This document shows positions 22,135 to 63,842 of a stretch of 64,000 nt of DNA, one piece after another. Source of the stretch: Burkholderiales bacterium RIFCSPHIGHO2_01_FULL_63_240 (lineage in GTDB: Bacteria; Pseudomonadota; Gammaproteobacteria; Burkholderiales; Burkholderiaceae_C); assembly GCA_001770725.1 (NCBI GenBank), contig MERU01000001.1, positions 363,012-427,011 of the forward strand, written 5' to 3'. The notes below the pieces were generated by a model. It saw only the letters and a program-made list of their open reading frames with translations, was not told the origin of the DNA and did no database searches. The position numbers and the translations under genes are program-made. The stretch's first letter is position 1. Every line of letters begins with the position of its first letter.

Positions 22135-23142
22135 ATGCAACACCGCCTGCACGCCCCCGCTCAACCGCGCGCCATCCGCATGATGGCCCTGCTGCCCGTC
22201 GTCCTGGCCGCCGCCCTGGCCGCCGGCTGCGGCGACAAGAGCTCGTCCGAAGGCAAGGCGACCCAGTCCGCCGCCCGTGTGAACGACACCGAGATCACCG
22301 TTCACCAAATCAACCAGATCCTCGAGCGCCAGCAGGGCCTGCGCCCCGAGCAGACGGATGCCGCCAGCCGCAACATCCTCGAAGGCCTGATTGACCAGCA
22401 ACTTGCCGTGGCCAAGGCCGAAGAACAGAAGCTCGACCGCGATCCGCAGGTCATGCAACTGCTCGAAGCGACCCGCCGCAACATCCTGGCGCGCAGCTAC
22501 ATCGAGCGCGCCGCCGCCGCCGGCGCGGGCACCCCGAGCGCCGACGAAATCCGCAAGTACTTCGACGACAAGCCGGCCCTGTTCTCGCAACGCAAGGTCT
22601 ACGCGCTCCAAGAGTTCACGGTGCCTGCGACCGCCGAACAGACCAAGGACGTGATCGAAGTCCTCAAGAAGGCCCGCACCCCTGCCGAATACGCAGAGAC
22701 CATCAAGGCCGCAGGCCTGAAGTTCACTGCCCAGCAAGTCACCCAGGCAGCAGAAGGCCTGCCCCTGACGATCGTTGATCAACTGGCCAAGGTCGGAGAC
22801 GGCGAAGCGCTGTTCATCACCGCCAAGGACGGCTTCAAGGCCATCCTGGTCGTGGCCAGCCGCGCCCAGCCGGTCACCTTTGATCAGGCCAAGCCTGCGA
22901 TCGAGCAGTTCCTGACGGCAGAGCGCCGTCGCCAGTTCGCTCAGAAGGAAGTCAAAGCCATGCGTGATGCTGCGAAAATCGAGTACCTGGGCAAGTTCGC
23001 CGAGAAGCCGGCTTCGGGCGCAGATGCAGCCTCGGCAGCCAACAGCAGCGTGGCCTCGACCCCGTCCGTGGCGGCATCGCCCGCATCCGCTCCCGCCGTG
23101 GATGCCGAAGCCCTGTCCAAAGGCATTTCTGGCCTGAAGTAA
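22135..23142 (+). CDS. epsD: EpsD-type peptidyl-prolyl isomerase lipoprotein
   Basis: This 335-residue envelope protein has a lipoprotein signal (ALAAGC, lipidated Cys32). It continues with a SurA-like chaperone part (ARVNDTEITVHQINQILER; ILEGLIDQQLAVAKAEEQ) and a region resembling a parvulin domain around residues 155-255. It ends in an Ala/Ser/Pro-rich tail of about 40 residues. EpsD is found in exosortase-linked exopolysaccharide clusters, where it probably helps fold or place envelope parts of the export machinery. It leads the epsD-epsF-epsG-beta-helix unit. ATG 22135 has a weak ribosome site; ATG 22180 is a possible shorter start that keeps the signal. Confidence 0.88.
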   Translation: MQHRLHAPAQPRAIRMMALLPVVLAAALAAGCGDKSSSEGKATQSAARVNDTEITVHQINQILERQQGLRPEQTDAASRNILEGLIDQQLAVAKAEEQKLDRDPQVMQLLEATRRNILARSYIERAAAAGAGTPSADEIRKYFDDKPALFSQRKVYALQEFTVPATAEQTKDVIEVLKKARTPAEYAETIKAAGLKFTAQQVTQAAEGLPLTIVDQLAKVGDGEALFITAKDGFKAILVVASRAQPVTFDQAKPAIEQFLTAERRRQFAQKEVKAMRDAAKIEYLGKFAEKPASGADAASAANSSVASTPSVAASPASAPAVDAEALSKGISGLK

Positions 23143-23203: not shown

Positions 23204-24661
23204 ATGAGCTTTACCGACTTTCTCCGCGTTCTCCGAGCACGATGGCTGCTGGCAGCCAGCATTTTTCTGACCATCACAAGCCTGGCGCTCGTCGTCAGCC
23301 TTGTCTGGCCCAAGAAATACGCCGCCAGTGCCATGCTCATGATCGATCTCAAGATCGATCCTGTGGCAGGCACGTCTGCTGCCGGGGTGGTGCCTTCGGC
23401 GGCCTACCTGGCCACCCAGGTCGACATCATCGAAAGCAATCACGTCGCCTCGAAGGTCATCGACGAACTCAAGCTGGAAGACCTGCCGCAGTTCCGTGCC
23501 GAATGGGATGCGGATGGCCGCAAAGGCGACTACAAGAACTGGCTCACCGCTCGACTCCTGTCCAGCCTGAAGGTGGAAGCGGCCCGAGAAGCCAACATCA
23601 TCGAACTGCGGTTCTCGGACGGCAATCCGAAATTTGCACAGTCCGTCGCCAACGCCTTCGCCAAAGCCTACATCGACTCCACCGTTCAGTTCAAAACCAG
23701 TCCTGCCAAGCAGTACTCCGAATTCTTCGAAGAACGTGGCAACCTGGCCAGGCAGAAGCTCGAGCGCGCGCAGATCAAGTTGGCGGAAACCCAGAAGCAA
23801 AAGGGCATCCTGGTCACCGATGAGCGCCTGGACGCCGAAACCCTCAAATTGAGCGAGCTGTCCACCCAGCTGACCCAGCTTCGCGGGGCGCTGGCCGACT
23901 CCAGCAGCCGCAACGTCCAGGCAAGTCGCAACGCCGAGGTGTCACCGGAAGCCCTGGCCAGCCCATTGCTGACCGCGTTGCGCACCGATCTGTCCCGTCA
24001 ACAAGCCAAGCTCGACGAATCGCTCGAGCGGTACGGCGACAACCACCCGGTCATCATCGAATCGCGCGCCAGCATCGCCTCGACACAAGAAAAGATCCGG
24101 CAGGAAATCGGCCGCGTCAACCGCGGCATTGGCGCCACCGACCAGATCAACCAGTCCCGCATCCAGGCCATCCAGGTGGCCTACGACGAGCAACGCCAAA
24201 AGCTGCTGCAACTCAAGGAAGCCCGCAACGAACTCCTGCTCATCGAGCGCGAAGTGGCTGCGGCCCAACGCGTTTACGACGCCATCCAGGCCCGCCAGAG
24301 CCAGATGAGCCTGGAAGGCAGCAACAGCCAGAACAACATCGTCGTGCTGAATGCCGCCGCAGAACCCACCAGCCCTGCCACACCGCGTGTGGGCATCAAT
24401 ACGTTGCTCGGGGCGGTTCTCGGTCTGATCCTTGCCGCCGTGATCACCACCCTCATCGAACTGTCGGACCGCACCGTCCGCGGCACCTCTGATCTGGTCA
24501 ACCTGCTCCAGACCCCGGTGATCGGCTTCATGTCCTCGCGGATGCGCCCACGTCGCTGGTGGATGCCTCAAGCCGAAGAAAGCATCCTCTACCCTCTGGA
24601 GACTGCTGCTGCCGGCAGCCTGGAAGCCCCCCCACCCAACATGTCAGGCCGACTACTCTGA
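23204..24661 (+). CDS. epsF: EpsF-type polysaccharide chain-length determinant (Wzz/PCP)
   Basis: This 485-residue inner-membrane co-polymerase has an N-terminal membrane helix (WLLAASIFLTITSLALVVSL), a long periplasmic coiled-coil domain (about 170-390) and a C-terminal helix (INTLLGAVLGLILAAVITTL near 420). The Wzz-type TSPATPRVGIN segment with prolines precedes the last helix. It sets chain length and works with the tyrosine-kinase partner EpsG, encoded two bases downstream. The start at 23204 follows the domain layout. EpsF-type proteins mark exosortase B-linked loci. A paralogue lies at 62220-63641. Confidence 0.92.
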   Translation: MSFTDFLRVLRARWLLAASIFLTITSLALVVSLVWPKKYAASAMLMIDLKIDPVAGTSAAGVVPSAAYLATQVDIIESNHVASKVIDELKLEDLPQFRAEWDADGRKGDYKNWLTARLLSSLKVEAAREANIIELRFSDGNPKFAQSVANAFAKAYIDSTVQFKTSPAKQYSEFFEERGNLARQKLERAQIKLAETQKQKGILVTDERLDAETLKLSELSTQLTQLRGALADSSSRNVQASRNAEVSPEALASPLLTALRTDLSRQQAKLDESLERYGDNHPVIIESRASIASTQEKIRQEIGRVNRGIGATDQINQSRIQAIQVAYDEQRQKLLQLKEARNELLLIEREVAAAQRVYDAIQARQSQMSLEGSNSQNNIVVLNAAAEPTSPATPRVGINTLLGAVLGLILAAVITTLIELSDRTVRGTSDLVNLLQTPVIGFMSSRMRPRRWWMPQAEESILYPLETAAAGSLEAPPPNMSGRLL

Positions 24662-24663
24662 AC

Positions 24664-25581
24664 ATGGACCAGACCAAGAAGTTCCTCCACTCCGGCTTTG
24701 ACGGAGTCGATGCGTCGTTCCCTGACACCGCGCAGATGCCTCGCGATGAGCCCACCATCGGCGAGATCATCAGCAAGGCCAACAACCTGTCGCCAGAGCA
24801 GATCGAAACGATCCTGCAGTACCAGAAGGAAAACAGTGTCCGCTTCGGCGAAGCCGCTGTGGCATTGGGTCTGGCCAACACCAACGACGTCATGTGGGCG
24901 CTGGCACAGCAGTTCCACTACCCTTACAGCGGCGAGCACGAAGAGAACTTCAACCAGGAACTCATCGTTGCCACCAATCCGTTCTCGCCGCAGGCCGAGG
25001 CATTCCGAACAACGCGCAGCCACCTCATCATGAAGATGTTCAGTGGCAACGCGCCTCGCAAGGCGCTTGCTGTGTTGAGCGCTGACTCCGGCGACGGCAA
25101 GAGCTATTTCGCCGCCAACATTGCGGCGGCGTTTTCCCAACTCTCCGGCCGGACCCTGTTGGTTGACGCGAACATGCGCAGCCCCAGGCTGCACGAGATT
25201 TTCCAGATCCCCAGCAGCTCGGTGGGCCTGACTAGCATCCTCACCGGACGCTCCGTCAGCAACGTCATCAAGTCGGTCAAGACGATGCCGAGCCTGTTCA
25301 TACTGCCGGTGGGCACCGTTCCACCGAACCCCCTCGAGTTGGCCGAGCGCTCCGCATTCGGGTTGCTGATGAGGGAGTTGCTGACCAAGTTCGATCACGT
25401 CATCGTCGACACCCCTGCGCTGTCGCAAGGCATGGACGGCGCCGTCATCGCCGCGAAATGCGGGGCGGCCGTGCTGCTGGCGCGGCAGAACGTCACCAAA
25501 GTTCGCAAGCTTCAATCTGTCGTGGGTGCCTTGCGCATGTCAGGCACCACCGTTGTTGGCAGCATCGTCGTGGATCACTGA
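24664..25581 (+). CDS. epsG: EpsG-type BY-kinase-like ATPase with N-terminal MshEN-like domain
   Basis: This 305-residue protein has two parts. Residues 31-83 form two 24-residue motifs (31-54 and 60-83), each with Gly at position 3, Leu at 21 and Gln at 24. They are separated by exactly five residues, the layout of the c-di-GMP-binding MshEN domain. The C-terminal part is a bacterial tyrosine-kinase ATPase: Walker A SADSGDGKS (139-147), Walker A' LLVDANMRSP (165-174) and Walker B HVIVDTPA (245-252). It would pair with EpsF to control polymerisation. The usual C-terminal tyrosine cluster is missing (the tail ends VGSIVVDH), so autophosphorylation there is unlikely. It is cytoplasmic at the membrane. 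Confidence 0.9.
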   Translation: MDQTKKFLHSGFDGVDASFPDTAQMPRDEPTIGEIISKANNLSPEQIETILQYQKENSVRFGEAAVALGLANTNDVMWALAQQFHYPYSGEHEENFNQELIVATNPFSPQAEAFRTTRSHLIMKMFSGNAPRKALAVLSADSGDGKSYFAANIAAAFSQLSGRTLLVDANMRSPRLHEIFQIPSSSVGLTSILTGRSVSNVIKSVKTMPSLFILPVGTVPPNPLELAERSAFGLLMRELLTKFDHVIVDTPALSQGMDGAVIAAKCGAAVLLARQNVTKVRKLQSVVGALRMSGTTVVGSIVVDH

Positions 25582-25583
25582 AC

Positions 25584-27065
25584 ATGAAAAAGCCGCAACC
25601 ATGGGCCCTGATTGGATTCAGTCTTGTGTTCATGGCCGGCTCATGGTTGGCGCCTGTCGCCTGGGCAGCCGAGGCCTGTCCGGCCACGCGCACCGTGACC
25701 CCGAAAGGCGCCACCGCTCAAGACATCCAGCAAGCCATCGTCAAGGGTGGTCCAGGCAGCACGGTCCTGCTGTCCGGCAACTACCGGATCGACGCCACCT
25801 TGCGCCTGCTGGATGGCACGACGCTGTGCACCACGGAAGGCGCCACGCTGACATGGGTTGACCCAGCACGCGCCGGCATGATCATCGATGCCACCTCCGC
25901 ATCCGCCACCACCGTGCGCAACCTCATCCTGGATGGCCGAGGGATCGCCGTGCGCGGCCGGGGGCACGTCATCGAGAGCAACCTGATTCGCAACATCCAG
26001 CAGCCAGCCTACCTGCAACAGGACAAACGGCGCTGGGGAGAACGCCATGGCGTCTTCATCCCCGACCAGGGTGATGACCTGACCATCAGGCAAAACCTGT
26101 TCAGCAACATCGTCGACACAGGGGTGATGGGCTACAACATCGATCGCAGCCTCATCGCGGACAACAAGTTCGGCGACGTCCATGAAGGCATCCACCTGTT
26201 TTCGGTTTCACGCACCCAGATCCGCAACAACAGCGGCCAGGGCTTCCGCGCCATGTCGATCGAGATTCAGGGCGACAACCTGCCAGGTCTCGTCGTCGAA
26301 GCCAACCGGTTCGGCCGGTGGCACAAGGACCACGAGAAAGGCGCCTACGCGATGTCCATCGTGGCAGGCGCGTCGGCGGTCATTCGAGACAACGTGATCG
26401 AGGGCTCTCCCCTCATGGCTGCCGGGCTGGAGATCGGCGGCCATGCGCCCCTTGTGCAACGCAATCAGCTGACAGATGCCAACATCATCGTCACCGACTC
26501 GCCAGACGCCGTGCTGCAGGCCAATCAGCTGATCCGAGCAGGCATCGTCAAGGACGTCAACCGCGTCAAAGGCGGGAAACTCACCATCCAGGACAACGTC
26601 ATCCAGGACGCGCCCCGAGCCGCCATCACCACCGATCACTGGTGGGGCTACGACCAGGTGATCATCCAGGGCAACCAGATCTCCAAGAAGCTGTCTTCCG
26701 ATACCCAGGAATTCGTGGGCATCCTTGCATCGGACTTCCAGAAGCAGCCACTGAGGATCGAGAACAACCGCATCACCATCAGCAAGGGTGGCGTCAGTCG
26801 CCATGTGCCCGTCACTTGCATCAAAAACGGGGGCAGCCAGGGCAACCTGAGGGGCATGCGCGTGGTGGGCAACACCTGCGATGGAGGCGGTGTGGCCACC
26901 TTCAGCGACAGCAACGCTCCAGGGGGGCACATCGACGTGACCTACGAGCGCAACCAGCTCATGAACCTGCGAGACACGATCACCGGTGACACCACGGGCT
27001 TGAAGGCCAAAGACAATCAGTTGGTCAATGTCACCGCCGATCAGGCGCGACTGGGCAACCGCTGA
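25584..27065 (+). CDS. Secreted right-handed parallel beta-helix protein
   Basis: This 493-residue protein has a Sec signal peptide (cleavage near AWAAEAC, about residue 30). Pectate-lyase-like beta-helix turns repeat throughout: GTTLCTTEGATLTW, NLILDGRGIAVRG, ESNLIRNIQ, IRQNLFSNI, VEANRFGRW and so on, with Asn-rich ladder positions. Such proteins in polysaccharide loci are lyases, epimerases or depolymerases acting on the product in the periplasm or outside. No catalytic set can be assigned. It follows epsG after two bases and ends the epsD unit. It may trim chains or belong to the export gate. Confidence 0.83.
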   Translation: MKKPQPWALIGFSLVFMAGSWLAPVAWAAEACPATRTVTPKGATAQDIQQAIVKGGPGSTVLLSGNYRIDATLRLLDGTTLCTTEGATLTWVDPARAGMIIDATSASATTVRNLILDGRGIAVRGRGHVIESNLIRNIQQPAYLQQDKRRWGERHGVFIPDQGDDLTIRQNLFSNIVDTGVMGYNIDRSLIADNKFGDVHEGIHLFSVSRTQIRNNSGQGFRAMSIEIQGDNLPGLVVEANRFGRWHKDHEKGAYAMSIVAGASAVIRDNVIEGSPLMAAGLEIGGHAPLVQRNQLTDANIIVTDSPDAVLQANQLIRAGIVKDVNRVKGGKLTIQDNVIQDAPRAAITTDHWWGYDQVIIQGNQISKKLSSDTQEFVGILASDFQKQPLRIENNRITISKGGVSRHVPVTCIKNGGSQGNLRGMRVVGNTCDGGGVATFSDSNAPGGHIDVTYERNQLMNLRDTITGDTTGLKAKDNQLVNVTADQARLGNR

Positions 27066-27068
27066 ACG

Positions 27069-28406
27069 TCAGCGGCGCCCAAGGCGGCCAACCAACGGCG
27101 CGCCCACCAGCTCCTGCAATTCGTCGACCGACCTGACGCGACGGTCACGCCTCTCGCTCGCATAGGCCCCGATCCACGCCAACAGCAGGCCCATGCCCAC
27201 AGAAACCGGGACGAAGTACGTCAGGCTCGGGAACCAGGTGCTCGCAGGCAACCCAGAGAGGCTGATCACCCGAACGTCGCCACGGGGCGCATCCTTCAAA
27301 AGCTCGGTCAACTCGGCCTGTGTCAAAGCATCTTCGTACCGCTCCGCGCTCAGGTCGGCTTTCTGTTGAGCGGAGACCAATGCCTGGCGCTGCTGTTCGC
27401 GCACCAACAATGCAGCCTGCTTGCGCGCATCGTCCTGCTGCAGCGACCTCACGGCCTGCCCCATCCCGCTCGCCCGGGTCGACTGAGAGGCGCGCCGTTT
27501 CTGCTCGTAACGCCGAATGTCGGCCTCCAATCCCACCGTCGACGCATCCAGGGCCCGCACGATGGGGTGCTGATCCCCCATGGATGACACGGCCTCCGCA
27601 CGCTGCGTGCGCAATGCAGACAGGCGCTCCCGCTGCTGCAACAGATAGGCGTCATCGAGAAGCGTGCCTGGATCGGCCTTGCCAGCCAGGACCTGGTTGA
27701 TCGCCTCCTGACCCAGGAACGCGCCAACGACGTTCGAGGTCTGGTTGCTGCCCTGCAAATGCGCGCGCAGATCGGGGTCGGCCACCACGTCCACGACCAT
27801 GGCCCGGGAGGATCCCTGCGCCAGCTCGGCATGCGCCGAGCGCATCTCGCTCCTGGCCTGCTCCTGGGCCTCGGCGTACGCGCGCCCGGCAAAGAGGTCA
27901 ACGCCCCGGTTCAACTGATCGGAAGCAAAAGCCAGTTCCTCGGCAAATGCATTGGCCATGGCTCGCGCCATTTCAGGAGACGGTGAGGCATACGAGACGG
28001 TCACCAGGCTCGAGCCGGGAGTGGCCCGCGGGATCAATCCGCCCAACACGACGTTTTCGAGCCAGGTCTCGAATGAGGGGCGCCCCTCGCCCAGCATGGC
28101 CCACTGCTGCTGCATCACCGCCATGCGGTCCAGGCCAAGCCTCTTGATCACCCGCTCAGCCACCAAACGGCTGCTCAGCAGACCAACGCGCGAAGCAAGC
28201 AGGTTGGCCTGGACATCGTTCGTTGCGATCTGAACGGGGTTCTCCGACGCATCCAGCAACACCACGGCATCCGCCTTGTAATGATGCGGCAGAGAAAACC
28301 AGCATGCGGCAGCGACGATTTGCGCCAATGCAAAGATGCTCACCGCAAGGACGGGGCGGTGACGCATCACCTGCCAGGGCGCGAGTCTGTTCACCGCGAT
28401 GCTCAT
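27069..28406 (-). CDS. Wzz-like chain-length determinant without kinase partner
   Basis: This 445-residue protein has a membrane helix near residues 18-38 (VLAVSIFALAQIVAAACWF), a periplasmic coiled-coil domain, and a second helix near 400-420 (FVPVSVGMGLLLAWIGAY). The Wzz-type segment (AVVLLDASENPVQIATN) follows the first helix. It is the last gene of the minus-strand operon that begins at the exosortase B gene. Its ATG overlaps the upstream glycosyltransferase stop as ATGA. It is convergent with the beta-helix gene, with 3 bases between the stops. It lacks an adjacent tyrosine kinase, so it may share EpsG. Confidence 0.85.
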   Translation of the reverse strand: MSIAVNRLAPWQVMRHRPVLAVSIFALAQIVAAACWFSLPHHYKADAVVLLDASENPVQIATNDVQANLLASRVGLLSSRLVAERVIKRLGLDRMAVMQQQWAMLGEGRPSFETWLENVVLGGLIPRATPGSSLVTVSYASPSPEMARAMANAFAEELAFASDQLNRGVDLFAGRAYAEAQEQARSEMRSAHAELAQGSSRAMVVDVVADPDLRAHLQGSNQTSNVVGAFLGQEAINQVLAGKADPGTLLDDAYLLQQRERLSALRTQRAEAVSSMGDQHPIVRALDASTVGLEADIRRYEQKRRASQSTRASGMGQAVRSLQQDDARKQAALLVREQQRQALVSAQQKADLSAERYEDALTQAELTELLKDAPRGDVRVISLSGLPASTWFPSLTYFVPVSVGMGLLLAWIGAYASERRDRRVRSVDELQELVGAPLVGRLGRR

Positions 28407-34775: not shown

Positions 34776-35504
34776 TCAAGGTTTGCCAAACAGGCGAACG
34801 CGTTGCTCGGGTGGCAGCGCTTTTTCAAGGTCCCGAACGAAGCCCTCTTGCAGCTTGAACTGCTCGGCTTCGTTGCTTCCCAGGGAAGAAATGCGAAAGA
34901 GGAAGCCATCAACGATCATCCCCTGCAAGCCGTAACGCATCTGCTGGAGCTTGCGGCTGATGCCAGGCAGGGCTGCGGTGTCATGCAGGGTGACCCAGTA
35001 CGTGATGGGCTCGATCTGCTGGCCTCTGCGGGACATCAGTCGGATCACATCGATGTCATGGCCATTGAGCGCCAACTTCGCCTGCCCTCGCCCCTGCACC
35101 TCGAAGCCCTGCGCCGAATAGCAGAACTCAGGTCGATGGGCCGCGGTGTTCCAGGAGTTCTGGTTTTTGCCGTAGGCCAACGACAGCATCATGGCATCGC
35201 CCTTTGAGTTCACATACGTGACGTTCAGGGTGCCGGAGTACAGGGTGGAAAGCTTGGCTTCCACCGTCGGGTCGTAGATCACGGCCGGACCCGAGTGATC
35301 CACCCGCCAGTCCCCGAACTGCTCGGGCAGGAACTCTTTCATCACCACCGGCCGCAACTCGTCGGCCATGACACGGCTCGGCTTGAGCCACTCGGACACC
35401 CCGAGCCCGCCGAGCATCAATGCTGCAGCGACCAGGATGGCACCAGGAAATTTCACCCGCTTGGGCAGGTCATTCGCGACGGCCACGTGCACCTCCTTGA
35501 TCAT
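34776..35504 (-). CDS. epsI: Exosortase-associated protein EpsI (set 1)
   Basis: This 242-residue protein has one N-terminal membrane helix ([22 protein letters not shown]). Its periplasmic domain includes [27 protein letters not shown], the HRPExCYxxxG motif of EpsI. EpsI works with exosortase, either fused (XrtA) or, as here, separate (XrtB type). Its biochemical role is not settled. The start overlaps the exosortase gene end by 35 bases and its stop lies nine bases before gmd. A second EpsI is at 45441-46130. Confidence 0.9.
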
Positions 35505-36381
35505 CGAAACGCACAGCCAGAAGGCGATCGAACCCGTACGTCAGGGTCAGCGCCACGACAAACAGCACCATGCCGGCAAAGGTGTGCGCAAAACCCTGCC
35601 CGGCCTCGTCACCAAGGTGATAGGTGATCAGCACAAGGATGATCACCCGCGTGACATTCGAGATGAACGAGATTGGCACGATCATGATGGCCAGGATGAT
35701 GTTTCGGGCCTTTGACTGGTAGTTCATGATGTTCATGTACAGCAGCCCCAGTGCCTCCAGGGTGAACAGCGAGTTCAGGCCAGAGCAGGCGTCGGCCACC
35801 AGCAATTGATATGGCCCGATCGTCAAGGTCACGCCATTTCGCGCGATCGGATACCCCACCCAAAACAGCACCTCAGTGGCCACAACGGACACAGCGCTCT
35901 TGAGCGGAAGCGTGATTGCCTGCACCAGGGCACCGGGCAACGGCACCATGAAAACCAGGAAGAAAAGCGGGAACCATGCCCGACGCAAGGCCCCGGTGCC
36001 GTGCAGCAGCAAGAACCCCGCCATCAGCATCGTGATCTGCGACGCAGCGGCCATCTCGATGACAGATTGGGAGCGCCCCACGACATAGGCCACGAGCGTC
36101 AACCCCAACAACGTGAACCCGGCGAACAGCGACGGCTTCGGCGGCCCCGCCAGGATCTTTTCACGCTGAGACCAAATCAGCCACGCAGCGGCGCAAATGA
36201 TCAAGGGACCATGGCCTTGCTCTTCGGTGGCCCAGGTGGTGCTGGCCAGTTCTGCGTAGGTGCCCGCGTACATCAGCAGGAATGCGGCCAGGAAAACCAG
36301 GATGCCAGGCGCGGAAACCAGGGGATTCAGGCCAAACAGCCCGACAGCGGGCGCAACTGAACTGGTGGTTGGGGTGGTCAT
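35470..36381 (-). CDS. xrtB: Exosortase B (set 1)
   Basis: This 303-residue membrane transpeptidase has about eight helices. The exosortase catalytic residues are visible: Cys199 in LLVADACSGLNSLFTLEALG, Arg245 in SNVTRVIILVL and His266 in GFAHTFAG. Exosortases cleave PEP-CTERM tails and pass proteins on to the cell surface or to glycosylation. The separate EpsI and the EpsF/EpsG neighbours mark the XrtB type. ATG 36381 gives the family length; an upstream ATG at 36474 would add 31 residues lacking similarity. It leads the eight-gene minus-strand operon ending at the Wzz-like gene. Confidence 0.92.
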   Translation of the reverse strand: MTTPTTSSVAPAVGLFGLNPLVSAPGILVFLAAFLLMYAGTYAELASTTWATEEQGHGPLIICAAAWLIWSQREKILAGPPKPSLFAGFTLLGLTLVAYVVGRSQSVIEMAAASQITMLMAGFLLLHGTGALRRAWFPLFFLVFMVPLPGALVQAITLPLKSAVSVVATEVLFWVGYPIARNGVTLTIGPYQLLVADACSGLNSLFTLEALGLLYMNIMNYQSKARNIILAIMIVPISFISNVTRVIILVLITYHLGDEAGQGFAHTFAGMVLFVVALTLTYGFDRLLAVRFDDQGGARGRRE

Positions 36382-36732
36382 GGATTTGGAGGGGAACAAC
36401 TGGATGCCCGGCGACCCCTGCGGGGCTGTGATCAATGGCTGGCGGGCCCCGTCGGAACGCAACACGCCTGTCATTCATTGTTACCGATTCACCTCGAAAG
36501 TTCCGACAGAGGATCCCCTGAAAAGCGGGTGAACGCCGCCACCCCGGGCAAACCTGTAAGCGATTGTCTTCACATCCACGCGCATTCCATCACGCTCACG
36601 GGAAAGCCCGGCCCCGCATTCAGTGGGTTTCCCTAGACGTCCGCAATCCCCCCCCACCTAAAATTTGTCTCAAGGTTGACGCAAAGGCCGTCGAATCACA
36701 AACAGCCTGACGTCGCCCCAGAAGGAAATAAA
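36382..36732. promoter_or_regulatory. Divergent promoter region between xrtB and wecG/tagA
   Basis: About 350 bases contain no supported gene unless xrtB starts at 36474. A possible wecG promoter is TAGACG (36634-36639), 19 bases, TAAAAT (36659-36664), whose -10 matches five of six consensus bases; the spacer is long. An AAGGA ribosome site precedes wecG. A poly-C run lies at 36648-36655. No sigma-54 motif was seen here. Confidence 0.35.
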
Positions 36733-45440: not shown

Positions 45441-46130
45441 TCACCGCACCAGGTATGACCGCTTGTCTGGCGGCAAGGCCTGGATCAAGTCACGAGTGAA
45501 AGTTTCGAGAACCTGATGGTAAGGCCCCGGATCGGCATCCGTGTTCACGCGTTGCGAAGCGCGCACCAAGATGCCATCGGTCATGCGCCCCTGCAGGCCT
45601 TCCTGCATGATCTGCCAGCGGATGCGCCAGGGGCTGGCGCTGTAGGTGTCGCCAATGCGGATCCAGTAGCTGACCACCTCCTTGTTGCCGCGCCCATCAA
45701 CCACCATGCGCTGCCCGGTCACATCCTGGCCAGCCGCCTTGCTGTGCACCCCGGCAAACACGGTGGGCTGCAGCGACATCACCTTGAAACCCTGAGCCGG
45801 GTAACACAACTCGGGGCGGTGCACCTTCACCTCCTGGCGCTGGTTCTTGCCATAGGCCAGTGCCAGCATGACCATGTCGCCGCGGGCGTTGACATAGGTG
45901 CGAGACACGACTTCGTCGTACGGCTGGTCGGTGGAGGTGGCCCCCTTGGTCACCACCGAAGCCTGCACCAGCGCATTGGGCAGCATGCGCCACTCGCCGA
46001 AGCGCTCGGGCACCGCCTGCTCCAGGTTGGGATCGGGCACAGCCGCATTGATCGAGGGCCTCAGCAACAAACCCGCCGAGCCAATGCCCACCAGCAAGAT
46101 CGACACAACGGTGGAACGCAACCAACTCAT
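45441..46130 (-). CDS. epsI: Exosortase-associated protein EpsI (set 2)
   Basis: This 229-residue protein has an N-terminal membrane helix (TVVSILLVGIGSAGLLL) and a periplasmic domain with MLALAYGKNQRQEVKVHRPELCYPAQGFKVMS, the EpsI HRPExCYPxxG motif. Its ATG overlaps the xrtB2 stop by four bases. The motif agrees better with the typical EpsI form than the set 1 copy does. The pair has been retained intact, with no sign of decay. Two GT2 genes follow. Confidence 0.9.
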   Translation of the reverse strand: MSWLRSTVVSILLVGIGSAGLLLRPSINAAVPDPNLEQAVPERFGEWRMLPNALVQASVVTKGATSTDQPYDEVVSRTYVNARGDMVMLALAYGKNQRQEVKVHRPELCYPAQGFKVMSLQPTVFAGVHSKAAGQDVTGQRMVVDGRGNKEVVSYWIRIGDTYSASPWRIRWQIMQEGLQGRMTDGILVRASQRVNTDADPGPYHQVLETFTRDLIQALPPDKRSYLVR

Positions 46131-47047
46131 GCCTCAGCCTCCTTGGCTTGCGCAGCGGGGCTGGAGCTGCCCGCCTTGTTCTTGAAGAACACACCCAACA
46201 CGGCATCCACACCCACGGTCAGCATGGTCGCGGCCATGAACAACAGGATGCCGGCGAAGTCATGCACAAAGCCCTGCCCCACCGCATCCCCGAAGTAATA
46301 CGTCACGAGCACCAGCGCGATGACGCGCAGCACGTTCGACACGAATGAAATCGGGATGATGAGGGTGGCCAGCGCGATGTTGCGCCACTTGTTGGTGTGG
46401 CCTGCCACGCTCATGTAGAACACGCCGACCGCCTCCAGCGCAAAGATCGAATTCAGGCCTGCGCAAGCATCTGCCACCAGCAACTGATACTGACCAATGT
46501 GCAGGGTCACGCCCTGACGAGCGATGGGGTAGCCCGCCAGGAACATCAGCCACTCGGCCACGTAGGACACACCCATTTTCAAAGGCGCCGTGACCGCATC
46601 AACGATCGAGCCCGGAACCGGGATCAGGAAGAACAGGAAGAAGATGGGGAACCACATCACCTTCAGGCCCTTCCAGCCCCAAAGCAGCAGCACCACCCCG
46701 ATGGCCACCGGGATCTGCGACAGGGCGTCCAGGAAAAGAACGTCCTGAGAGCGGCCCACCGCGTAGATTAGCCCGCCGATCAGCAGGGCAATGGCCCCGG
46801 CCACGTTGGCCGGCCGAGCGTCGGCATGCGGCAGGTTCGGGTAACGCTGCCACGCCAGCCAGATGGACAGCGCCAGCATGATCGGCCCATGCCCTTGGCC
46901 CACCAGACTCCAGATGTAGGTGTCCAGCGCCCGATAGGTCGGGAAGTACATGGCCAACAAGGCCGCCCCGACCAGGGCGGGGGCCCAGCGCACGGGCAGC
47001 CCGCCGCTGGACGCTGCTGGGGGGGAGAGGGATGGATTGACGCTCAT
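46127..47047 (-). CDS. xrtB: Exosortase B (set 2)
   Basis: This 306-residue membrane transpeptidase has the same core as set 1: Cys195 in LLVADACAGLNSIFALEAVG, Arg241 in SNVLRVIALVLVTY and His262 in GFVHDFAG. About eight membrane segments are seen, with an Ala/Lys-rich C-terminus. ATG 47047 is used; the longer frame adds 14 residues. It leads the minus-strand operon xrtB2-epsI2-GT2-GT2-rfbBDAC. Substrate proteins with a PEP-CTERM tail are not present in the window. Confidence 0.92.
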   Translation of the reverse strand: MSVNPSLSPPAASSGGLPVRWAPALVGAALLAMYFPTYRALDTYIWSLVGQGHGPIMLALSIWLAWQRYPNLPHADARPANVAGAIALLIGGLIYAVGRSQDVLFLDALSQIPVAIGVVLLLWGWKGLKVMWFPIFFLFFLIPVPGSIVDAVTAPLKMGVSYVAEWLMFLAGYPIARQGVTLHIGQYQLLVADACAGLNSIFALEAVGVFYMSVAGHTNKWRNIALATLIIPISFVSNVLRVIALVLVTYYFGDAVGQGFVHDFAGILLFMAATMLTVGVDAVLGVFFKNKAGSSSPAAQAKEAEA

Positions 47048-47348
47048 CGGTTTCGAGAACCCTGAAGATTTGGAACAGTCTGTCCACAAAGACCGAGATC
47101 ACAGGGGGAAGTTCCCAGGTTCCCCCCTATCGGCGGGGGGTGATGTCCGAATAGCGAGGGCGCCTGATCCGGACAAGGGCAACACACCCAGTCACACACA
47201 CGAACATTTAGACATAGTAGTAACCCCAAAGTTGTCACTTGGCGTCGATAGACTGAATCCATGCCCTGAACCACTGGCGCGGTGAGCCCATTGCAGGCCT
47301 GACTCACCACAGCAGTGCGCATTCTGCGAACGGGCTCAAGTCAATGCG
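47048..47348. promoter_or_regulatory. Divergent promoter region between xrtB2 and an acyltransferase gene
   Basis: About 300 bases without a gene. A GGGAA-G-TTCCC palindrome (47106-47116) is embedded in a longer GGGGGAA/TTCCCCC repeat (47104-47110 and 47120-47126). The same C run can instead pair with GGGGGG at 47135-47140. A GTTGTCAC (47231-47238) repeats, in inverse orientation, an octamer seen upstream of epsD and of the second beta-helix gene. No clear -35/-10 pair was found. Confidence 0.4.
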
Positions 47349-59967: not shown

Positions 59968-61293
59968 TCACCCTGGTTTTCGCTTGGCGCCGATGATCAG
60001 GAGCGCCAAGCCAACGCCCAGGAAAGCCGTGAACGAGCGCGATTCCCCGAAGTAGGGGTACCTGTAGAGCTCCAGCATCATGATGAAGCACAAGGGGAAC
60101 AACAAAACCCCTCGCGCACGACCATCGGTGATTGCACGGTACAAGAACCCGCTCACAAAGCCCAGCACACTGAAGTAGGTCATCGCGCCAGCCACGCCCA
60201 GGTCGTACACCACTGTGTAAACCCCTGAAGGGTTGTTGAACTCGGGGTCGGCATACTTTTTCAGAAAGTACCCCATGGATGAGTAATCCAGCTCTGAGTA
60301 GTAACGAAACAGGGCACCAAAAATCCAAGGGGCCTTGTATGCGAACGCCAGGGTGTGCTCAAACTTGAAGCTCGGCCAGTTTTGGGTGTGAAGGAGGCCG
60401 GCGCCGTTGTTCAGGGACGTGTAGTAGTACGTCGCGAAACGGCCCGCCGCGAACTCCCAGAACGGCATCTTGCCCTGGTAGGTGTCCGACTGCCACGACC
60501 GGAAGTACTCTCCGACGCCGAAGTAGAGGATCAGCAAGGGCAGGCCGATGAGGGGCAACAGGGAAACCAAGCGCCGGGACCCAGGGGACATGCTGCCGCA
60601 CTTGGCACAGACAAATGGAACCACCACCGCAACGCCGATCTCGATCATGGCCAGGCGTTCTGACCAGACGTAGACGCGAAAGATGGTCAGCAGCAGCAGT
60701 GAAATGGCCAACCAGCGCAAGGACCTGCTCACCTTCTGAGGCTGCGTCACCAAAACGTGGGTGAACAGCGCGAAGAACACAGGCATGAAATTGACCAGCG
60801 AGGACACACCCGTGGCCGTCGAGATCTCTTCACGGCCCATGCGGATGCTGCCCGTGAGAACACCGAACAAGGTAGCTGGCGAGAAAAAGATCTTCCTGAA
60901 CCAGACCATGTAGGCGAACACACCGATGAGCCCGATCACCCAGGCAGCCACAGCCCAGTTCCGCTCATGGACCGGGGTCCCGCCTCCTTTGATCTGGACC
61001 TGTTGACCGACCAGCGCAGCCAGGGCCATCAAGGCCATGAGACCTATGCCGCCAAGCGAATATCCAATGTCGAGGTACTGGATCCCACGCACCGTCAGCG
61101 CTGGGGAGCGAATCTCGCCCAGCAACATGATCAGCAGGAACACCGGTATCAGAAAGCCGACGATCAGGCCGAAAGGCGAGATCCACCAGATGCCACGGCG
61201 ACTCTGTGCATTCGCTTTCATGGAGGTCGCCGCAATGCTGGACTGCGATGCGTGGGAGGTGGCCGAGCGCATCGACACAAGGCTTTCAGGCAT
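59968..61293 (-). CDS. O-antigen/exopolysaccharide polymerase (set 2)
   Basis: This 441-residue inner-membrane protein has about eleven hydrophobic segments. Aromatic-rich loops with KFEHTLAFAYKAPWIFGALFRYY (described, not full) near residue 290 and SGVYTVVYDLGVAGAMTYF near 355 are typical of Wzy-like oligosaccharide polymerases. The C-terminal FIMMLELYRYPYFGESRSF is a further polymerase trait. ATG 61293 shares its base with the epsG2 stop (TGATG), so translation is coupled. It belongs to the epsF2-epsG2-polymerase unit. Confidence 0.8.
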   Translation of the reverse strand: MPESLVSMRSATSHASQSSIAATSMKANAQSRRGIWWISPFGLIVGFLIPVFLLIMLLGEIRSPALTVRGIQYLDIGYSLGGIGLMALMALAALVGQQVQIKGGGTPVHERNWAVAAWVIGLIGVFAYMVWFRKIFFSPATLFGVLTGSIRMGREEISTATGVSSLVNFMPVFFALFTHVLVTQPQKVSRSLRWLAISLLLLTIFRVYVWSERLAMIEIGVAVVVPFVCAKCGSMSPGSRRLVSLLPLIGLPLLILYFGVGEYFRSWQSDTYQGKMPFWEFAAGRFATYYYTSLNNGAGLLHTQNWPSFKFEHTLAFAYKAPWIFGALFRYYSELDYSSMGYFLKKYADPEFNNPSGVYTVVYDLGVAGAMTYFSVLGFVSGFLYRAITDGRARGVLLFPLCFIMMLELYRYPYFGESRSFTAFLGVGLALLIIGAKRKPG

Positions 61294-62189
61294 CAATAGT
61301 CGTTGAGCACCGTGCCCAGGATTTCCACACGGGCTCTCGAGCAGTACTGCGCCAACTGCTTGACGGTCTTGGTCGAATTCGCTCCGGCACGAACCACCAT
61401 CAGCACGTTCTGGCACTTGGCTGCGATGGACACGCAATCGATGCCGACGTCAGCAGCCGGTGTGTCAACGATCACAAAATCAAACTTGTTGCGCAAGTCA
61501 TTGAGAAGCAAAGCGAAAGTCGGTCGCTCAACCAATTCCTGAGGGTTGGGCGGGATGACCCCGGAGGGGAGCACGAACAGATTCGCAAACTCAGGCGACG
61601 GAACACACAGCCCCGCTTCTGCGCGACCATTGAGCGCCTCGGACAAGCCGGTCTGGCGATCAGAGATTTCGAACAGCTCCTGCATGCGCGCATTGCGCAT
61701 GTCGGCGTCAACCAGTGCCACTCGCCCACCCAATTGCGCCAGGGTGATGGCCAGGTTGGCCGCAATGAAGGTCTTGCCATCACCGCGGTCCGCGCTGAGC
61801 AGGGCGATCACGTGCCCATGTCGGGCACCTGCGTCCGCACCCAGCTTGATCAGCAACTGACTGCGCAAATTGCGAAAGCGCTCGGCATGATCAGAGAATG
61901 GCGCGTTTGCCACCACGAGTTCATCGGACACAGACCGTGCCGCAGCGTTTCGATACGGATAGTTGTATTGCTGGGAGAGTGCCCAGATCACGTCCTGAGG
62001 TGAAGCCAGGCCCAGCTCAACAGCCGCCTCACCAAAGCGTTTGCCTGTTGCGCCCTGATGGGCGAGGATGGCATTGACCTGCTCAGGGCTCAGCTGCTTG
62101 GCCTGCGTGATGATGTTGCCGATGCTGCGCTCATCGACGGCATGGGTACCTCGGCGCTTCTCTGCAGACGAGGAGGTGATTTGGTTCAT
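61293..62189 (-). CDS. epsG: EpsG-type BY-kinase-like ATPase with N-terminal MshEN-like domain (set 2)
   Basis: This 298-residue protein has the same two-part layout as the 24664 copy. Residues 22-45 and 51-74 are 24-residue motifs with Gly at 3, Leu at 21 and Gln at 24, separated by five residues, as in c-di-GMP-binding MshEN. The ATPase has Walker A SADRGDGKT (132-140), Walker A' LVDADMRNAR (159-168) and Walker B FVIVDTPA. The C-terminus is NDY with a single Tyr and no cluster. ATG 62189 is chosen because AAGG lies at good spacing; ATG 62198 is possible. It would pair with EpsF2. Confidence 0.9.
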   Translation of the reverse strand: MNQITSSSAEKRRGTHAVDERSIGNIITQAKQLSPEQVNAILAHQGATGKRFGEAAVELGLASPQDVIWALSQQYNYPYRNAAARSVSDELVVANAPFSDHAERFRNLRSQLLIKLGADAGARHGHVIALLSADRGDGKTFIAANLAITLAQLGGRVALVDADMRNARMQELFEISDRQTGLSEALNGRAEAGLCVPSPEFANLFVLPSGVIPPNPQELVERPTFALLLNDLRNKFDFVIVDTPAADVGIDCVSIAAKCQNVLMVVRAGANSTKTVKQLAQYCSRARVEILGTVLNDY

Positions 62190-62219
62190 GACTCGCATAC
62201 CTTGACTTGACTGTCGCAC

Positions 62220-63641
62220 TCAGGTCGATTGGGGAGGAAGCAGGGCAAGCTGCTTCTTGTCGCGCCCGCCCAGGGCCAGCCGCGAAAACATGCGGGAGGC
62301 TCCAGGTCGCGAGACCGAACTCAACGTTGTCAGCGGGGTTTCGCCAAAAATCTCTTCGATGTCTTCTTCCGTGCGCAGCTTGCGATTGCGCATTTCGACG
62401 AAGAAGGCCGCGAGGAAGCCGAGGATGGCCGAAAGCACGACGCCCACGCTCATGTTCAGCATCATGTTGGGCTTGGACGGCAGGCTGGGAACTTCGGCCG
62501 CGCTGAGCAACTGCACATTGGTCTGGCTCGACTGCCCTTCAAGGCCCGTTTGATTCAGCCGTGCAGCAATGCTCTGGTAGCTGAGTTCAGCGTTCTCGAC
62601 GTCCTTTGCCAACACGGCAGCTGTGTCACGCGCTTCCTTGAGCTTGAGGACACGTTTGCGCTGCTCATCGTAAACGCCACGCACATCGGACTCCCGACCA
62701 CGGCTCACCGAGTTGGTGACGGCAACCGTTTCACCGATTTTGCGGATCTCCTGCGCGAGCTTTTGCTTGAGCTCGGCGATCACGGCCCGAGACTGGATCA
62801 CCTGCGGGTGGTTATCCCCATAGGTGGACATGAGCTGCCCCAGTCTGGCTTCTTCTGAAACGATGCTCGATTTGATGGACGTGACGTTGGGGTGGCTCAT
62901 CACGTCTTGCAGGCGGTCCGAGCTTTGCGCCGCGCGATTGGCCGTGTCTGCAGACATGCTGCGCAACAGAACCAGTTGCTGGGACAGGTCGTTGAGCTTG
63001 TTGAGCTCCGTGTCCAGACGCTCGTCGGACGAGATGAGGTCGTTCTCACGCAGGTAGCTGGACAACTTGGCCCGTGCCTCATCGACCTTGGACTTGGATT
63101 TGGCCAAGCTCTCGTCAAAGAAGCGCGCGTACTGGCGAGCCGGAGCCACACGCAAGTCAAGCGAGACATCGATGTAAGACGAAGCAAAAGCGTTTGCCAA
63201 AACCGCTGCGAACCGCGGATCTTCGCCTTCGTACGTGATCTCGATGACGTTCGATTCACGCGATGGCTTGATGATCAGGTTCTGCTTGATGAAATTGGAG
63301 GCCCACCCGATGTAACTGCCTTCACCACTTGCGCGCTTTTCCCATGCCTGACGCAGCGCTGGCGTTTGAAGCAACCCGGATTTCTCCAGCACCTTCCGCG
63401 CAACCACATCGCTTCGGATGATGTCGTACTGCGTGGCCATCATGGTGGGCAGCGCGCCAGCTCCACTGCCAAACACCGAAAGGGGATCGCCTTTGGCATC
63501 CACGACCACCGTTGCGGTCGCCTCGTAGCGCTTTGAACTCAGCAAAGTCACCGCAGCAGCAGTCAGGGTTCCAGCGGCTGCCACCGCCGCGATGATTTTC
63601 CACCGAGCGCGTGTGACGGACAGAAGTTGTGTGAGGGTCAT
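62220..63641 (-). CDS. epsF: EpsF-type polysaccharide chain-length determinant (set 2)
   Basis: This 473-residue Wzz-like protein has an N-terminal helix (WKIIAAVAAAGTLTAAAVTLL), a periplasmic coiled-coil domain including VYDEQRKRVLKLKEARDTAA, and a C-terminal helix (NMSVGVVLSAILGFLAAFFVE). The Pro-containing SKPN segment precedes the last helix. It shares architecture and local blocks with the 23204 copy, for example YGDNHPQVI against YGDNHPVII. ATG 63641 follows the domain layout. It is followed by epsG2 and the polymerase. Confidence 0.9.
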   Translation of the reverse strand: MTLTQLLSVTRARWKIIAAVAAAGTLTAAAVTLLSSKRYEATATVVVDAKGDPLSVFGSGAGALPTMMATQYDIIRSDVVARKVLEKSGLLQTPALRQAWEKRASGEGSYIGWASNFIKQNLIIKPSRESNVIEITYEGEDPRFAAVLANAFASSYIDVSLDLRVAPARQYARFFDESLAKSKSKVDEARAKLSSYLRENDLISSDERLDTELNKLNDLSQQLVLLRSMSADTANRAAQSSDRLQDVMSHPNVTSIKSSIVSEEARLGQLMSTYGDNHPQVIQSRAVIAELKQKLAQEIRKIGETVAVTNSVSRGRESDVRGVYDEQRKRVLKLKEARDTAAVLAKDVENAELSYQSIAARLNQTGLEGQSSQTNVQLLSAAEVPSLPSKPNMMLNMSVGVVLSAILGFLAAFFVEMRNRKLRTEEDIEEIFGETPLTTLSSVSRPGASRMFSRLALGGRDKKQLALLPPQST

Positions 63642-63842
63642 GATTGGCGACAACGTAACCAGGCAGGCGCGCCCAGCGTGATTTCAGATACGACTTGACA
63701 AGGAAGGTTCCATCCACAGGCCCAGGCAGCCCGCATACGGGGGGGGCTCACGTGAGCACAACGCCGCTTCATCATAGACCGTCACCCCCAGCATGAGCAG
63801 CACAGCAAAGCGGCCCGCGCCCATTCGCATGAGCACCTGGCA
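63642..63842. other. Intergenic gap between manC and epsF2
   Basis: About 200 bases with no supported gene; the minus-strand promoter for epsF2 is expected here, unless epsF2 is read from manC. A G run (63739-63745) and a GCGACAAC near 63649 are the only features of note. Confidence 0.35.

Follow-up and report, generated by a model that had tools for sequence, protein, structure and literature searches.

The EpsF1-EpsG1 locus and the N-terminal domain of EpsG1

An exopolysaccharide (EPS) locus of Burkholderiales bacterium RIFCSPHIGHO2_01_FULL_63_240 encodes EpsG1, an EpsG-like protein in which a sensor-like N-terminal domain precedes a bacterial tyrosine kinase (BY-kinase)-like domain. The gene lies in the 64,000-nucleotide stretch analysed here (the window; contig MERU01000001.1, positions 363,012 to 427,011), downstream of the genes for EpsD and for EpsF1, a polysaccharide co-polymerase partner that lacks a kinase domain. 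The EpsG1 ATG (24664) comes 2 nt after the end of EpsF1 (Table 1). EpsG1 aligns to the TIGR03029 model over positions 4-272 of 274 but scores under the equivalog cut-off (270.8 against 313.8 bits), and is therefore termed EpsG-like.

Table 1 Features of the window discussed in the text. Curated NCBIfam cut-offs are 313.8 bits for TIGR03029 (EpsG), 422.75 for TIGR03017 (EpsF), 108.9 for TIGR02925 (EpsD) and 38 for NF053729.
Feature	Position	Strand	Basis or remark
EpsD, peptidyl-prolyl isomerase, upstream of EpsF1/EpsG1	22135..23142	+	TIGR02925, 197.3 bits
EpsF1, kinase-less co-polymerase partner	23204..24661	+	TIGR03017, 419.1 bits
EpsG1, 305 residues, sensor-like and BY-kinase-like domains	24664..25581	+	TIGR03029, 270.8 bits
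MshEN_N-like domain of EpsG1, residues 31-83	24754..24912	+	Tandem motifs, NF053729, predicted fold
Motif I, TIGEIISKANNLSPEQIETILQYQ	24754-24825	+	
Five-residue spacer, KENSV	24826-24840	+	
Motif II, RFGEAAVALGLANTNDVMWALAQQ	24841-24912	+	
EX2RX2R ring-interface motif, residues 112-118, EAFRTTR	24997..25017	+	Intact in 98/101 EpsG
P-loop GDGKS, residues 143-147	25090..25104	+	Lys146 retained
C-terminal 25 residues	25504..25578	+	0 Tyr, no tyrosine cluster
EpsI type B, adjoins first exosortase B	34776-35504	-	
Exosortase B (XrtB) of the EPS locus	35470..36474	-	
Second EpsI, adjoins second exosortase B	45441-46130	-	
Second exosortase B	46127..47089	-	
EpsG2, second EpsG-like protein, 308 residues	61293..62219	-	P-loop Lys present
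MshEN_N-like domain of EpsG2, residues 32-84	61968..62126	-	NF053729, 39.1 bits, above cut-off
EpsF2, co-polymerase partner of EpsG2	62220..63653	-	TIGR03017, 431.3 bits, above cut-off

Residues 31-83 of EpsG1 comprise two 24-residue motifs, each with Gly3, Leu21 and Gln24 (G33, Q54, G62 and Q83 for the Gly and Gln positions), separated by exactly five residues. The same motif length and spacer, with Gly3 and Gln24 in both motifs, are found in the MshEN domain of Vibrio cholerae MshE (PDB 5HTL), which binds cyclic di-GMP (c-di-GMP) and from which the ligand-contact positions used below were taken (PMC5013675). The initial annotation, which had read the region as a predicted c-di-GMP-binding MshEN-like domain fused to the EpsG kinase, was exact in its coordinates and residues, including a Thr at the first position of motif I and Arg60 in motif II, ahead of the BY-kinase-like domain. 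At guanine-contact positions 2, 17 and 21 EpsG1 has Ile32, Ile47 and Leu51 in motif I and Phe61, Val76 and Leu80 in motif II, all hydrophobic and mostly not Leu.

NF053729 (NCBIfam 'cyclic di-GMP-binding domain-containing protein, MshE-related') aligns to EpsG1 over model positions 2-53 of 53 with an E-value of 8.3e-8, and matches every one of 58 aligned relatives at E <= 0.01. Run against the PDB, a profile built from the relatives retrieves MshE (E 3e-9); the EpsG domain is homologous to those of MshE and PilF. The predicted fold is the four-helix bundle of MshEN_N, the subdomain that contacts c-di-GMP, although a fold by itself is no proof of function. Chance origin of the motif pair can be ruled out from the NF053729 match together with the conservation described below. 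In contrast, Pfam MshEN (PF05157) gave no match to EpsG1 at E <= 10, with the HMMER filters applying, and none among the 58 domains of the relatives' alignment; the four Pfam MshEN matches in the genome do not include EpsG. This failure is probably accounted for by the absence of the MshEN_C subdomain from EpsG. In an MshE-type ATPase of the same genome, most of the Pfam match (C6:64192-64449) falls downstream of the two motifs (C6:64030-64233). According to Wang et al. 2016, the C-terminal subdomain of MshEN is dispensable, binding without it having a dissociation constant (Kd) of 0.35 uM (PMC5013675). The proposed MshEN identity thus stands with respect to homology, predicted fold and most contact residues, and falls short with respect to MshEN_C and the Pfam family. 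Because motif I starts with Thr31 instead of Arg, Lys or Leu, EpsG1 is, on its residues, classed as MshEN_N-like rather than canonical MshEN.

Two further observations concern the relationships of the domain. Thirteen of the 58 domains weakly match the C-terminus of fumarase (best E 5e-4), and fumarases occur in the structure lists; we discarded kinship and take this as a common helical arrangement. Separately, a pilus-type ATPase of the same genome (L001, G000:C9:304483-304992) carries two overlapping matches to the N-terminal part of the EpsG model before its Pfam MshEN match, which we read as an extended run of MshEN-type motifs.

Conservation of the domain in the EpsG family

We examined 80 loci from named genomes, the best 80 of 585 relatives and hence biased towards the kin of the query; the closest named relative is Aquabacterium commune (79% identity). 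The N-terminal domain is present in all 80 loci, and EpsF adjoins EpsG upstream in 79, its stop codon lying 45-198 nt ahead of motif I; the remaining locus (L077) is truncated on that side. TIGR03029 matches extending into the domain (model start <= 5) are listed for at least 20 of the 369 genomes of the class; the cut-off of the model is passed in 7 of 369. Since the TIGR03029 model itself begins in the domain and all 80 loci carry it, the domain is a family trait of EpsG and not a new fusion peculiar to EpsG1. Apparent EpsF-MshEN-EpsG fusions in three loci (L012, L026 and L029) were rejected: EpsF lies in another frame, and the long frame has no NCBIfam EpsF match.

Residue counts were made on 101 full-length EpsG proteins, consisting of the 80 loci, 19 proteins from the class-wide TIGR03029 listing and the two window copies. 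Eleven of 112 profile matches were dropped for want of the N-terminal domain or of the kinase: eight Wzc-type proteins (L032-L035 and L037-L040), two domain-less EpsG-like proteins (L030 and L036) and L094:6820-7839, which has the domain and no kinase. Alignment A2 covers 60 and alignment A3 56 of the 80 loci, the EpsG2 row of the latter ending ten residues before the end of the domain. A second set holds 120 proteins, query included, being the listed part of 4556 matches at E <= 1e-10.

In the 120 listed proteins, Gly of motif I and five residues of motif II (Arg, Phe, Gly, Glu and Gln) are invariant, each occurring in 120/120. Motif I position 10 is Asn throughout (120/120), and position 1 of this motif is Ser in 100, Thr in 18, and Ala and Pro in one each. 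The 101 EpsG proteins show the same asymmetry. Motif II retains Gly3 (101), Gln24 (101), Phe2 (100), Leu21 (99) and Arg1 (84), with Arg, Lys or Leu at position 1 in 94; motif I retains Gly3 (101) and Gln24 (96), so that 96 proteins have Gly3 and Gln24 in both motifs. Position 1 of motif I is Ser or Thr in 72 and Arg, Lys or Leu in only 10, five of these being Arg. The Thr of EpsG1 hence follows a family rule and is not a local loss. The turn residue Gly10 occurs in 58 proteins in motif I and in 85 in motif II. Mean entropy is 0.77 bits at the 12 positions corresponding to c-di-GMP contacts of MshE, compared with 1.61 at 10 core and 2.06 at 31 other positions (permutation p 1e-4; rows in this and all other counts share ancestry, so p values are rough). 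Conservation of most MshE contact positions in the EpsG family is thus supported at the level of sequence.

In one locus (L094:6820-7839, Polaromonas sp. RYN_585, a metagenome-assembled genome), a WecG/TagA/CpsF-type glycosyltransferase directly downstream of EpsG carries an N-terminal domain of the EpsG type. Both motifs of this domain have Arg1, Gly3 and Gln24, and its NF053729 score of 32.5 bits lies under the cut-off. It is the only second domain seen among the loci searched for one, and suggests a module able to move between EPS enzymes.

The kinase part of EpsG and its genomic setting

EpsG1 retains Lys146 in the P-loop, together with the Asp residues of Walker A' (Asp168) and Walker B (Asp249). 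At the other acidic position of Walker A', its second, which matters for catalysis, EpsG1 has Asn170; across the family the residue is Asp in 72 and Asn in 29 proteins. At the P-loop lysine position, the 101 EpsG proteins have Lys in 40, Arg in 38 and other residues in 23. Tyrosine is absent from the last 25 residues of 69 proteins, occurs once in 29 and twice in 3, and forms a cluster in none. Because no member has a tyrosine cluster and 40 of 101 keep the lysine, the label 'kinase' used in the initial annotation is doubtful for the family as judged from these positions, although both window copies keep the P-loop Lys. As a stand-alone partner of a kinase-less co-polymerase that is without a tyrosine tail, EpsG fits a type described below.

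The lysine is unevenly distributed. It is present in 36 of the 40 rows of the window clade, whereas the other large side of the tree, which is weakly supported, lacks it in 54 of 55 rows. The distribution of Lys and non-Lys requires 8 changes, at least 4 of them forced by starred branches, in a quick build with 44 of 98 inner branches open and loss not distinguishable from gain. A strict rule that the domain implies no lysine therefore fails, the Lys-keeping proteins including the window clade. Gly3, together with Phe2, Leu21 and Gln24 of motif II, is kept by EpsG proteins both with and without the lysine. Mean entropy at the contact positions is 0.50 bits where Lys is kept and 0.78 where it is lost, versus 1.58 and 1.77 elsewhere. 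Motif I position 17 is Ala in 31 of 61 Lys-lost rows, and position 10 is Gly in 3 of 40 Lys-keeping rows. By these counts, the key residues of the putative c-di-GMP-type pocket are kept more strictly than the P-loop lysine.

Two control sets were taken, each consisting of the best-scoring 30 loci of its search. XrtA-type kinases (TIGR03018; stand-alone or open to a longer frame) have the lysine in 30/30 and 3-8 Tyr in 30/30, and none of the 30 matches the domain profile at E <= 10. The second set was drawn with the kinase-domain model TIGR01007 from 120 genomes of the order, with no selection on the N-terminal domain. Here 17 proteins have the domain, one being EpsG2 of the window and another a repeat of L016 of the first set; three of these have the lysine and none has three or more Tyr. 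The 13 without the domain have Lys in 13 and three or more Tyr in 12 (Fisher p 4.8e-6 for Lys and 1.5e-7 for Tyr, rough since rows are related), and all 13 are long Wzc-like frames (714-735 residues), so that domain absence is confounded with fused architecture. The XrtA set lacks the domain yet keeps both Lys and Tyr, which allows the two effects to be separated. The eight Wzc-type proteins have the lysine in 8/8 and at least four Tyr in 7/8. The two stand-alone, domain-less EpsG-like proteins (L030 and L036) may be plain pseudokinases of the EcpK kind.

In the genome (4.12 Mb, 99.99% complete), GGDEF has 50 matches; a local cyclase was looked for, and none of these matches lies within the window. 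PilZ has three matches in the genome and low-molecular-weight phosphatases have five, in both cases none in the window. Cycling of tyrosine phosphorylation would be expected to need a Wzb-type phosphatase. Since the window contains two EpsF/EpsG pairs (the second at 61293-63653) and two exosortase B/EpsI pairs (the second at 45441-47089), in both cases with the second pair on the minus strand, it possibly holds two adjacent XrtB-type EPS systems. A third, divergent EpsF-like co-polymerase (27069-28406, minus strand; TIGR03017 106.2 bits) is encoded 1.5 kb past EpsG1 on the opposite strand. The frame immediately following EpsG1 (25584-27065, plus strand) has no NCBIfam match at E <= 1e-5; we read its repeats as resembling a right-handed beta-helix.

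A possible role for c-di-GMP in the EpsF-EpsG ring

EpsG shares features with several characterised proteins. As in MshE, a four-helix bundle (predicted for EpsG) lies N-terminal to a P-loop ATPase; unlike MshE, EpsG lacks MshEN_C, and its ATPase has the BY-kinase fold and not that of a secretion ATPase. Motif I of EpsG1 has Thr31 and Asn40 where Arg and Gly stand in MshE, and the second residue of motif II is Phe instead of Leu (100/101). The same bundle occurs in GSPII-B and GSPII-A of Thermus thermophilus PilF, which unlike EpsG is a pilus ATPase with three domains in series and C-terminal subdomains. GSPII-B binds at 6 nM with Lys/Leu and no Arg at position 1, and in a GSPII-A construct that also had Ala at position 3, Ser at motif II position 1 is reported to abolish binding (PMC11731258, PMC12002112). 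By analogy, these precedents cut both ways for EpsG. NfrB of E. coli likewise joins MshEN-type control to an exopolysaccharide machine, with a Kd for c-di-GMP of about 1 uM (PMC8669469), but is a processive glycosyltransferase and not a co-polymerase partner.

Wzx/Wzy-type exopolysaccharide machines are thought to cycle between assembly and disassembly through tyrosine phosphorylation. EpsG resembles the Wzc/CapAB BY-kinases in its kinase fold, EX2RX2R ring motif and role as co-polymerase partner. It differs in carrying an N-terminal bundle, which the Wzc-type and XrtA-type proteins of the present comparison lack, and in having no tyrosine cluster at the C-terminus, where Wzc/CapAB have one. 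In Wzc/CapAB the octamer interface is formed half by EX2RX2R and half by the tyrosine cluster, autophosphorylation of which disassembles the octamer (PMC3795738, PMC8285477). EcpK of M. xanthus and HfsB of Caulobacter are, like EpsG, stand-alone kinase-like partners of a kinase-less class 2 polysaccharide co-polymerase (PCP-2) without a tyrosine tail; EcpK has lost all Walker motifs, in contrast to EpsG1, which retains them. BY pseudokinase partners were established with EcpK and HfsB in a 2025 study, where the driving signal was left open and MshEN and c-di-GMP are not mentioned in the main text (PMC12004946).

As EpsG keeps the EX2RX2R half of the interface, lacks the cluster and has an N-terminal bundle instead, the simplest account may be that the bundle and its ligand control ring assembly on EpsF. 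We propose, with confidence just short of an even chance, that the predicted bundle of EpsG1 (residues 31-83) binds one c-di-GMP, sets the engagement of EpsG with EpsF and so controls EPS chain length and export, replacing phosphorylation of a tyrosine tail. The bundle would offer an MshEN_N-type pocket for a single c-di-GMP, with the motif II half as in MshE and the motif I half without Arg and turn Gly. The Phe at motif II position 2 takes the place of MshE Leu39, one of three residues under guanine 1; Phe61 may stack on the same guanine, perhaps offsetting the missing motif I Arg. EpsG would form a Wzc/CapAB-like octamer docked on the cytoplasmic tail of EpsF, and ligand binding would shift the bundle and promote ring assembly or release, with high c-di-GMP favouring export. 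In this way c-di-GMP, in place of an autophosphorylation cycle, would cycle the EpsF-EpsG ring. More tentatively, EpsG could represent a third control class of co-polymerase partners, namely BY-kinase rings in which a c-di-GMP-binding MshEN_N bundle has replaced autophosphorylation of a tyrosine tail; the messenger itself would then cycle a ring whose kinase is catalytically dead in many lineages.

A number of observations weigh against this proposal. In EpsG1, Thr31 breaks the pattern of Arg, Lys or Leu at position 1 of both motifs, Asn40 at the turn of motif I (against Gly69 in motif II) breaks that of Gly10 in both, and the NF053729 score is below the cut-off at 31.9 bits for the whole protein and 35.8 for the cut-out domain. 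Position 17 of motif I does not keep the contact that Leu makes in MshE: the 101 EpsG proteins have Val (41), Ala (31), Ile (18), Leu (4), Thr (4), Ser (2) and Met (1) there. Of the two halves, motif I is throughout the weaker. Neither EpsG1 nor EpsG2 has lost its P-loop Lys, as a pseudokinase defined by loss of Walker motifs would have. L030 and L036 lack domain, Lys and Tyr altogether, which runs counter to a trade-off, and the contrast in the TIGR01007 set carries the confounding noted above.

Alternatively, the bundle could be a protein-docking module that attaches EpsG either to EpsF or to an adaptor of the PilZ type without any nucleotide, in the manner of the PilB N-domain with PilZ. 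The fold is common to PilB-PilZ complexes, the ND0 domain of Xanthomonas citri PilB is described as being without c-di-GMP motifs (PMC8389850), the consensus positions of motif I are degenerate in EpsG, and EpsF is the near-constant upstream neighbour. However, the invariant residues include Gly3 and Gln24, which contact c-di-GMP in MshE through backbone or side chain; a docking module would also have to be reconciled with XpsE, a non-binder that had lost most key residues in the account of Wang et al. 2016 (PMC5013675), and with the want of any PilZ match in the window. We consider pure docking unlikely, though a serious contender.

EpsG could instead be an active BY-kinase whose c-di-GMP-sensing N-terminal domain tunes the ATP-dependent phosphorylation of other EPS enzymes without self-phosphorylation. 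The intact catalytic residues of EpsG1, the prevalence of Lys in the window clade and the finding that CapB2 without its tyrosine cluster still phosphorylates CapO (PMC3795738) would all agree with this. It appears improbable given Asn170 and given that 61/101 EpsG proteins lose the lysine and keep the N-terminal domain, so that catalysis is not what the family as a whole conserves. Survival of the domain as a mere inherited relic, without a current function in EpsG1, would fit its sub-threshold score and degenerate motif I. This is very improbable, since neutral decay would not yield residues invariant in 120/120 listed proteins, and EpsG2 in the same window passes the NF053729 cut-off.

A link between such domains and EPS has a precedent in Wang et al. 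2016, where exopolysaccharide biosynthesis in Methylobacillus sp. is among the processes of MshEN proteins, citing Yoshida et al. 2003; in the main text of that paper the protein is not named and the name EpsG does not appear (PMC5013675). In the open-access literature we found no paper joining MshEN or c-di-GMP control with EpsG or BY-(pseudo)kinase partners. The new element, as read from sequence, would be the trade-off itself: the domain is kept, the tyrosine cluster is absent and the P-loop Lys is often lost. Partners unable to phosphorylate were described in the 2025 study, which posed the question of how they work (PMC12004946). For a group of Burkholderiales and relatives, a c-di-GMP-type pocket in EpsG offers a concrete and testable answer. 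If the proposal is true, c-di-GMP would supply a missing signal for phosphorylation-independent PCP-2 systems, and slime export would be linked to the biofilm messenger in a direct way, with no PilZ protein in between.
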